This document shows positions 3,625 through 35,303 of a stretch of DNA of 41,942 bases, in pieces. The notes below the pieces were generated by a model that saw nothing but the letters and a program-made list of their open reading frames with translations, made no database searches and was not told the DNA's origin. The position numbers and the translations under genes were made by a program. Each line of letters starts with the position of its first letter. Within the stretch, counting starts at the first letter, position 1. This DNA comes from Azoarcus sp. (GTDB lineage: Bacteria; Pseudomonadota; Gammaproteobacteria; Burkholderiales; Rhodocyclaceae), in assembly GCA_031258965.1 (NCBI GenBank), contig JAIRMC010000056.1:1-41942 (forward strand), given 5' to 3'.

Positions 3625-3686
3625 CTTGCCCAGTGCCTCCCCCGGGCCGCCCGGCTTCTTTTCTTTGAGAGATCGGGAGTTATTGC

Positions 3687-3715
3687 TTGAACCGCGCCGC
3701 GCGCGCCCTCATAAT
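3687..3715 (+). promoter_or_regulatory. Sigma-70 type promoter of the permuted tmRNA gene
   Basis: TTGAAC (3687-3692) and CATAAT (3710-3715) are separated by exactly 17 bases. A start near 3722 would place the RNA 5' end at the beginning of the acceptor piece. This fits the gene order and is inference from the match. Confidence 0.6.
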
Positions 3716-3721
3716 TCGCCC

Positions 3722-3785
3722 ATGGTTGTAATTCCGGCAATCTGGAGGCGTTCTGGACAGGGGTTCGACTCCCCTCATCTCCACC
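3722..3785 (+). ncRNA. ssrA: tmRNA acceptor piece (3' half of tmRNA, encoded first)
   Basis: This holds the tRNA-like 3' end of tmRNA. The T arm reads AGGGG-TTCGACT-CCCCT (about 3759-3775), followed by the acceptor strand CATCTCC (3776-3782) and discriminator A (3783). The acceptor strand pairs with GGGGATG at 3822-3828, which lies downstream; this is the hallmark of a circularly permuted ssrA gene. The genome reads ACCC rather than ACCA after the stem, so part of the CCA tail would have to be added by nucleotidyltransferase after trimming. No anticodon arm is present, which rules out an ordinary tRNA. The 5' end is set from the predicted promoter and is approximate. Confidence 0.85.
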
Positions 3786-3821
3786 CAAGCGTACAGGCGT
3801 TGCATGGTTGTGCGTTTGGGT

Positions 3822-4060
3822 GGGGATGTACCGGTTTCGACAGGGCGGGCAAAGGTGCGCAGGCAACCCGAGAGGCGACGGACGTAATCCGCGCAAATCC
3901 ATAAACGCCAACGATGAGCGTTTCGCAATCGCTGCATAAGCTGATTGCCGGGGCCGCTGAAGCCTTGTAACCCAAGACAGCCGGCGGGGGCCTCGGCCCC
4001 CGCCGTCACGTCTACCGGTTTAGGCCACTGTGGGCGGGCGCGCCCAGCGCCCGGTTCGAC
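3822..4060 (+). ncRNA. ssrA: tmRNA coding piece (5' half of tmRNA, encoded second)
   Basis: The piece begins GGGGATGTACCGGTTTCGAC, the conserved tmRNA 5' acceptor strand and D-loop text. The resume codon GCC is at 3907. The tag frame 3907-3939 reads ANDERFAIAA then TAA, close to the betaproteobacterial tag ANDERFALAA. Downstream are two strong hairpins, at 3983-4004 (GGCGGGGGCC/GGCCCCCGCC) and 4031-4046 (TGGGCG/CGCCCA), probably structural helices of the coding piece. The RNA rescues stalled ribosomes in trans-translation with SmpB. The roughly 36-base spacer at 3786-3821 would be removed to leave two RNAs. The 3' end is uncertain. Confidence 0.85.
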
Positions 4061-33687: not shown

Positions 33688-35303
33688 GCGTTCCCCGCGT
33701 GAGCGGGGATGATCCGCACGAAATGCCGGCACTGCTCCACCTCCGCGCGCGTTCCCCGCGTGAGCGGGGATGATCCGACCCCAGAGACATCTATGAGATG
33801 GTCGCTAATGCGTTCCCCGCGTGAGCGGGGATGATCCGACCGGCGAACCGGCAATATGGCGGTCGTTTTGGCGTTCCCCGCGTGAGCGGGGATGATCCGG
33901 GCCATAGGCTGCCCGCCGTGGTAGAGGTTGTGCGTTCCCCGCGTGAGCGGGGATGATCCTCACTCATGATCGGTCTCCGTGGTTTTTCCCTTGCGTTCCC
34001 CGCGTGAGCGGGGATGATCCGACGGCAGTTTCGGCCAGGGGCGGACAAAAAACGCGTTCCCCGCGTGAGCGGGGATGATCCGCCGTTTGGCGATTTTTTG
34101 AGCGAATTGCCTGTGCGTTCCCCGCGTGAGCGGGGATGATCCTCTACCGCGCCTGGGCTTTCCTGACAGGGCGCAGCGTTCCCCGCGTGAGCGGGGATGA
34201 TCCGGGGTACTGCTCACTGCGGATGATCCCTGGAACGCGTTCCCCGCGTGAGCGGGGATGATCCGCGAACATCCCGACAGGTCGTCAGTACGACGGCGCG
34301 TTCCCCGCGTGAGCGGGGATGATCCGTAAACACGCCCTTTGTTTCCGTCACGGAGTAGGCGTTCCCCGCGTGAGCGGGGATGATCCGAATTGGTACATCA
34401 TCTCCTGTGTGATGTTGTGGCGTTCCCCGCGTGAGCGGGGATGATCCGTGACCGGAAGCGTCAAGATTTCCTTCGAGATCGCGTTCCCCGCGTGAGCGGG
34501 GATGATCCGTCGGGAACAGACGTCGTTAGACGAAACCACGGGGCGTTCCCCGCGTGAGCGGGGATGATCCGGCAGAGAGTAGTGACCCGCCAGACGCTTG
34601 TCAGCGTTCCCCGCGTGAGCGGGGATGATCCGACCGGAAGGGCATCCGGCGCGGGGCTGAACGGGCGTTCCCCGCGTGAGCGGGGATGATCCGTGCTGCT
34701 TCCGGCTTCGACAGGCGTCGAGACAGCGTTCCCCGCGTGAGCGGGGATGATCCGTCCTGAGTAATCGTAATGTCGATTCGGCCCGAGCGTTCCCCGCGTG
34801 AGCGGGGATGATCCGGCGGTCAACCGTGTGTGGGCAGCAGCGGGGAAGCGTTCCCCGCGTGAGCGGGGATGATCCGCCTTTCGACGGCGGGCAGCATCAG
34901 ATCGCCCCGCGTTCCCCGCGTGAGCGGGGATGATCCGCGCGCGCTTGCTTGAGGCGACCCAACGCAGCGGCGTTCCCCGCGTGAGCGGGGATGATCCGAG
35001 CATCACCCGCGCGCAGAAGCACACGCTCGCGCGTTCCCCGCGTGAGCGGGGATGATCCTGCTCCTTTCGCTGTTCGATGGTCTGACGAAACGCGTTCCCC
35101 GCGTGAGCGGGGATGATCCGCTGGCGCTGATGCGCTCGTTTTCGTCCCATGTGCGTTCCCCGCGTGAGCGGGGATGATCCCGCATCTGTGTGGACATCTC
35201 CATGCCCTCCCAGGCGTTCCCCGCGTGAGCGGGGATGATCCGAAATCTAATGCGGTCATGGATGCTGTACGTATGCGTTCCCATCGTGAGCGGGATACAC
35301 TCC
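33688..35303 (+). CRISPR. Type I-E CRISPR array, 27 repeats and 26 spacers
   Basis: Twenty-six repeats appear identical over 28 bases, each starting GCGTTCCCCGCGTGAGCGGG and ending GATGATCC, at a regular period of 61 bases from 33688 (33749, 33810 and so on to 35214). One interval (34481 to 34543) is 62 bases. A last degenerate repeat is at 35275-35303. Base 29 is G after 22 of the 26 intact repeats and T or C after the other four, as expected if it derives from the PAM side of each protospacer. The repeat forms a CCCCGC/GCGGGG hairpin for Cas6e. Transcription is expected on the plus strand, from the cas2 side. Confidence 0.98.

Follow-up and report, generated by a model that had tools for sequence, protein, structure and literature searches.

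A circularly permuted ssrA gene lies on the forward strand of an Azoarcus sp. contig, at positions 3687–4008 of the window (the whole stretch of 41,942 nucleotides that was analyzed), as identified with the covariance model RF01850 and ARAGORN. RF01850 (beta_tmRNA) aligned over its full length, model positions 1–331, to 3673–4008 and scored 273.5 bits (gathering score 84; E = 6e-88), far above chance. RF04321 (tmRNA_permuted) also matched the locus (164.8 bits, E = 2.7e-33), and ARAGORN called a permuted tmRNA with the tag ANDERFAIAA. The one-piece model RF00023 reached 25.6 bits at the permuted locus, below its cut-off of 47, and RF01849 (alpha_tmRNA) reached 59.7 bits on the window, above its cut-off of 50. 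An earlier note on this DNA, made from the letters alone, had proposed a permuted two-piece tmRNA of the betaproteobacterial lineage and had named a search with the permuted beta-tmRNA models as a check; the full-length RF01850 match and the permuted ARAGORN call bear this proposal out. The features of the locus are as follows.

3687..3715, + strand: promoter-like TTGAAC-17-CATAAT (TTGAAC 3687–3692; CATAAT 3710–3715), about 6 nt ahead of the acceptor piece
3722..3786, + strand: acceptor piece (3′ part, tRNA-like domain), from the RF01850 and RF04321 alignments, with its 5′ end inferred from promoter and model
3759–3763/3771–3775, + strand: T-arm stem
3776–3782, + strand: 3′ acceptor strand CATCTCC
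3783, + strand: discriminator A3783 (A73)
3784–3786, + strand: genomic CCC at the CCA position
3783..3821, + strand: tail positions and intervening segment, from folds and from covariation in relatives
3822..4008, + strand: coding piece (5′ part of the tRNA-like domain, tag region, 3′ hairpin), from RF01850
3822–3828, + strand: 5′ acceptor strand GGGGATG
3907..3939, + strand: tag frame ANDERFAIAA and stop TAA, from ARAGORN
3983..4004, + strand: 3′-terminal G+C-rich hairpin GGCGGGGGCC-TC-GGCCCCCGCC, the last helix of RF01850

The acceptor piece is encoded upstream of the coding piece, and the acceptor stem GGGGATG/CATCTCC forms across both pieces with 7/7 pairs, one of them a G-U at 3-70, the alanine identity position. 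Every feature that the earlier note had named was found in the sequence, with coordinates shifted by 1–2 bases at most. The 3′ end that it had placed at 4060 is unsupported, since the models stop at 4008 (RF01850) or 4030 (ARAGORN), and the 3′ limit of the coding piece is uncertain between these two positions. No T run stands behind the hairpin at 3983..4004, which is absent from the terminator-like sites predicted.

The acceptor piece had also been credited with a promoter of its own, and this layout recurs in relatives. A TTGnnn-(15 to 19)-nAT[AG]nT pattern precedes 102/132 distinct permuted genes vs 2/132 shuffled stretches, and 100 of those 102 genes have a 17-nt promoter spacer. These comparisons show that a promoter-like site ahead of one predicted unit, with the acceptor piece before the coding piece, is conserved.

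By its sequence, the Azoarcus sp. gene is a further case of an already described class of two-piece tmRNA; the betaproteobacterial form was reportedly described by Sharkady and Williams in 2004. From the promoter region through the acceptor stem and tag region to the 3′ hairpin, and in gene order, the locus aligns with RF01850 and nothing essential differs, although a helix in the spacer, described below, is missing from that model's consensus structure, which draws the stretch as a loop. RF01849, the Caulobacter type, shares the permuted order, and spacer hairpins are common there, but the window matches it far more weakly than RF01850. Unlike the window's gene, alphaproteobacterial loci encode CCA in 24/29 parsed cases and pair A73 in 13/25 distinct spacers; these 29 come from the 30 best-scoring loci (87 genomes with a match), and their parser differs from the betaproteobacterial one and does not fit the window. 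The one-piece tmRNA of Rhodocyclaceae (RF00023) has the same tRNA-like domain and, in the printed genes, ANDERFALAA-type tags, but it is unpermuted, encodes CCA in 32/32 genes examined (those of G012 and G400 and the 30 of 57 that scored best), and lacks a helix between leader and trailer.

Distribution and neighborhoods of the two gene forms

The permuted form was found in 162/395 genomes. A sample of the order gave 16/399, nine of the 16 being from Rhodocyclaceae, the window's genome included. Among 101 Rhodocyclaceae genomes, 39 carry a permuted gene over the cut-off, 57 a one-piece gene, 1 both (G012), and 6 neither. In the genomes examined as a whole, both forms occur inside genera g21, g28, g30, g32, g45, g62, and g67. 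An rpoB tree was built for 80 of the 84 genomes in which rpoB was matched (32 labeled permuted, 44 one-piece, 3 neither, and 1 both; the window's row is only 35% filled). At least 16 form changes are needed on it, and the starred branches force 15 with the permuted label and 16 with the one-piece label. The labels are clustered: shuffles average 25 to 26 changes with 0/500 as low, and the permuted label takes 17 changes vs a shuffle mean of 25.2. Permuted G020 and one-piece G081 are sisters on a starred branch of 100, and further starred sister pairs with differing forms are G088/G029 (100), G100/G044 (99), and G017/G027 (95). Permuted and one-piece forms alternate within Rhodocyclaceae. Since close sister genomes hold different forms, two-piece and one-piece tmRNA can be compared directly, and the use of a two-piece tmRNA could be tested in sisters such as G020 and G081.

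Seven of the permuted genomes in the order sample lie outside Rhodocyclaceae, and one of them, G343, also has a one-piece gene; the permuted match (104.1 bits) and the one-piece gene (225.6 bits), together L048 and L116, share a contig. G239, also from another family, has two one-piece matches, L117 and L120 (203.5 and 201.5 bits), ~3 kb apart on one contig.

Neighboring genes were compared in 30 of the 39 permuted and 30 of the 57 one-piece Rhodocyclaceae genomes; we take the neighbors to be ubiG-like, gph, and ompA from the look of their proteins. The one-piece gene lies downstream of a ubiG-like gene in 24/30 loci, and the permuted gene adjoins the same ubiG-like gene in 9/30, with its orientation kept at three loci and inverted at six. 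At the window's locus, a MacB-like permease lies upstream, and a DUF4198-like protein, which scores just under that family's cut-off, and a TonB receptor lie downstream. Within the window's genus, 14 of 18 genomes were parsed (G054, G497, G604, and G638 left out): in nine the gene lies at the ubiG-like locus, with the orientation kept in eight and inverted in one; G000, G623, and G722 carry it at a MacB-like locus, and the remaining two have it elsewhere. The 30-locus synteny sample also places the permuted gene of G054 at the ubiG-like locus.

Permuted genes also occur on a Cupriavidus plasmid typed as non-mobilizable (231.7 bits) and on the Pandoraea plasmid pPO70-1, typed as conjugative (L387 5968–6302; 131.6 bits). 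A Pseudomonas indica assembly, possibly contaminated, holds a 280.6-bit permuted copy of betaproteobacterial type (L156 63–391), which adjoins ParB/DNA-methyltransferase and RuvC-like genes of phage families; the same assembly holds a one-piece ssrA. One IMG/VR contig was matched by exact pattern. No whole permuted gene turned up in annotated phage records, where the hits were 37-nt stretches in three records of Synechococcus phages. Given the copies on plasmids and beside phage-type genes, transfer of the permuted gene between lineages is plausible.

If transfer did not produce the patchy distribution, what did? Ancestors may instead have carried both forms and repeatedly lost one of them, as might be expected from the coexistence of the two in G012 (Rhodocyclaceae) and G343 (another family of the order), from the 9/30 permuted loci that adjoin the usual one-piece neighbor, and from the clustering of forms on the rpoB tree, where the permuted label takes fewer changes (17) than shuffles do on average (25.2). 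However, coexistence is rare (1/101 Rhodocyclaceae genomes), at least 16 changes are required, copies sit on plasmids and in phage regions, and the gene's location varies among members of a single genus. We consider repeated loss less likely than not, while allowing it real weight.

Several smaller observations concern individual copies. ARAGORN gives the tmRNA of pPO70-1 an odd tag, GKNDAFYYEAA. A third plasmid record was dismissed as a carrier of the permuted gene, the match being 32 nt long. In G313, a weak second hit was rejected as a second tmRNA: it duplicates the promoter but only a portion of the acceptor piece, ending just past the T arm. This partial copy (L229, about 1490–1620, reverse complement) lies ~8.5 kb from the intact gene and, where the two align (74 nt), agrees with it at 94.6%. 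By eye, the sequence past the break looks like the start of an integrase, and the locus's protein listing contains no such protein; perhaps an element was inserted in a permuted ssrA. A MAG contig that holds both L132 and L137 has two pattern matches but a single whole gene and may resemble the G313 case.

A predicted spacer helix over the tail positions

When the window's unit is folded, 3783–3796 pair with 3808–3821, and the resulting 14-bp helix stacks on the 7-bp acceptor stem to give 21 continuous pairs, with 3 more beyond one mismatch. The predicted helix covers the discriminator and all three CCA positions. Relatives were compared through 171 loci parsed of 253 (many of the 253 not being permuted genes), by a parse that relies on conserved motifs and misses divergent members; these gave 115 distinct spacers, 111 long and 4 short. 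Position 73 is paired in 110 of the 111 long spacers, position 74 in 73, position 75 in 110, position 76 in 89, position 77 in 100, and position 78 in 110. The pair at position 75 is C-G in 107 and A-U in 3, and position 76 shows C-G in 50, U-A in 29, A-U in 7, and G-C in 3, with 22 unpaired.

This pairing exceeds that of several controls. Positions 76–80 are paired in 494/555 cells vs 403 ± 7 when leaders are re-dealt among genomes (maximum 426 in 2000), and the fold of the units compared with that of shuffled spacers gives z < -2 in 110/111. For 25 units hand-picked for diversity out of the 115 distinct ones, an alignment has 93.7% of cells paired and 9 pairs changed on both sides; among 500 shuffles none reaches four of five measures, and 12/500 reach the fifth (further pair types), while slid controls leave 41 to 65% of cells paired. 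RNAalifold, unaided, predicts the helix, with positions 74 and 75 unpaired in the consensus. As a further control, leaders and trailers of the 32 one-piece Rhodocyclaceae genes introduced above pair at 3.8/12 positions vs 10.7/12 in permuted genes.

To take shared ancestry into account, 132 permuted genes, 124 of them with long spacers, were placed on a tree built with the spacer left out. At position 76, the two sides changed jointly in 5.8/7 supported independent pairs for C/G (0.0 against, median p 0.03) and in 6.6/8 for U/A (0.0 against, median p 0.016). Position 77 changed jointly in 5.8/7 (median p 0.03), and at positions 79, 81, and 82 the covariation on this tree fell short of significance. 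As far as comparison of sequences can establish it, these results show that the spacer is able to extend the acceptor stem over the discriminator and CCA positions and that compensatory changes keep the predicted helix in relatives.

The helix is not universal. Fewer than 8/12 pairs form in 7/111 units, and position 74 is unpaired in 38/111 long spacers. The four short spacers (7 loci) are 8 nt long, encode CCA, and have no helix, so the helix would be dispensable in some members. These 8-nt spacers (ACCACTGG and alike), at L030, L036, L037, L038, L231, L232, and L252, run ~4 nt beyond the encoded CCA.

Could the pairing be a by-product, arising from a mirrored origin of leader and trailer or from the ready folding of G+C-rich sequence, and not because selection acts on pairing? 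The spacers are often G+C rich, related sequences inherit the same pairs, and some members lack the helix or are mismatched at position 74. However, position 76 shows all four Watson-Crick pairs with joint changes on independent branches, pairing is clearly poorer when leaders are re-dealt, shuffled spacers fold worse (z < -2 in 110/111), and one-piece leaders and trailers have no comparable pairing. We therefore regard a by-product as improbable and a helix under selection as the better account of the covariation.

Tail, tag, and proposed maturation

The earlier note had treated a missing genomic CCA as peculiar to the Azoarcus sp. copy and the Ile in its tag as unusual; relatives overturn both points. 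Across the 111 distinct long spacers, the CCA position reads CCC in 64, CCT in 30, CCA in 11, CCG in 3, and CAG in 3, so that CCC is the commonest state, and the RF01850 consensus also has CCC there (the last c weak). A passage in a 2025 tmRNA database paper likewise describes the CCA position as "not always encoding CCA" (PMC11915505). The tags of 103 distinct permuted coding pieces include ANDERFALAA (44), ANDERFAVAA (20), ANDERFAIAA (16, identical to the window's), and ANDEQFAIAA (15), and FAIAA-type tags make up 35/103, one of them an odd parse. Since both traits are common in relatives, they are ordinary features of the Azoarcus sp. copy.

A one-piece ssrA elsewhere in the genome had been named in the earlier note as the finding that would speak against a two-piece tmRNA. 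The assembly comprises 2.71 Mb in 145 contigs and is 93.7% complete; within it, RF01850 matches the locus itself and nothing else, and no RF00023 match exceeds the cut-off of 47. The best RF00023 match away from the locus (32.5 bits) was rejected as a one-piece ssrA, as it falls below 47 and ARAGORN gives a tRNA-Ser there. SmpB is encoded in an open frame (192.6 bits), as are two proteins of the PolyA_pol family, which comprises CCA-adding enzymes and poly(A) polymerases; one or both may be a CCA-adding enzyme.

In the maturation that we propose, the spacer helix would join the two acceptor strands in the precursor. Cleavage by an endonuclease in the loop or helix, together with RNase P and 3′ trimming, would open and clear this helix, after which a nucleotidyltransferase would add CCA to the acceptor piece. 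The two stable pieces would remain joined through base pairing, and the two-piece tmRNA, charged with alanine and acting with SmpB, would carry out trans-translation and tag the peptides of stalled ribosomes for proteolysis. Taking the evidence together, the sole ssrA detected in this genome is very probably a circularly permuted betaproteobacterial two-piece tmRNA that would mature and act in this way. That the locus is instead a decayed or chance tmRNA-like remnant, with a working ssrA elsewhere, is scarcely credible: the genome is fragmented (145 contigs, 93.7% complete) and one relative holds a partial copy of the permuted gene, but the model match is full length, the acceptor stem intact, the tag frame open, and the promoter-like site conserved, the genome has no second tmRNA over cut-off, and the permuted gene is present in 19/21 listed genomes of the same genus, the remaining two being 82% and 66% complete.

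Beyond a two-piece tmRNA of this kind, a broader joint proposal can be put forward tentatively, as one that we hold to be slightly short of evenly balanced. It is that the precursor has been selected to hide its 3′ tail, with the helix pairing the discriminator and CCA positions, so that CCA is usually untemplated and maturation would start by opening of the helix, not by the usual RNase P-first route, and that the gene form is horizontally mobile and has been swapped with the one-piece form many times in one family. The covarying helix predicts which bases would be paired before processing and that a tail would have to be added, which makes cutting of the precursor testable. Two points deserve specialist attention: the predicted helix that covers the tail position and how often the gene form has changed. 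Either may already be in print; among the titles and abstract openings listed by our literature searches, none mentions that permuted tmRNA has a covarying spacer helix or that Rhodocyclaceae switch between the two forms.

CCA is encoded in 10/10 other tRNA genes of the genome, in a sample drawn from weak RF00023 hits. Within the window, ARAGORN places a tRNA-Arg(tcg) at 34852–34931 whose 3′ end, ...GCGGGGAT, is without CCA; this gene is perhaps a pseudogene or marks an island boundary.
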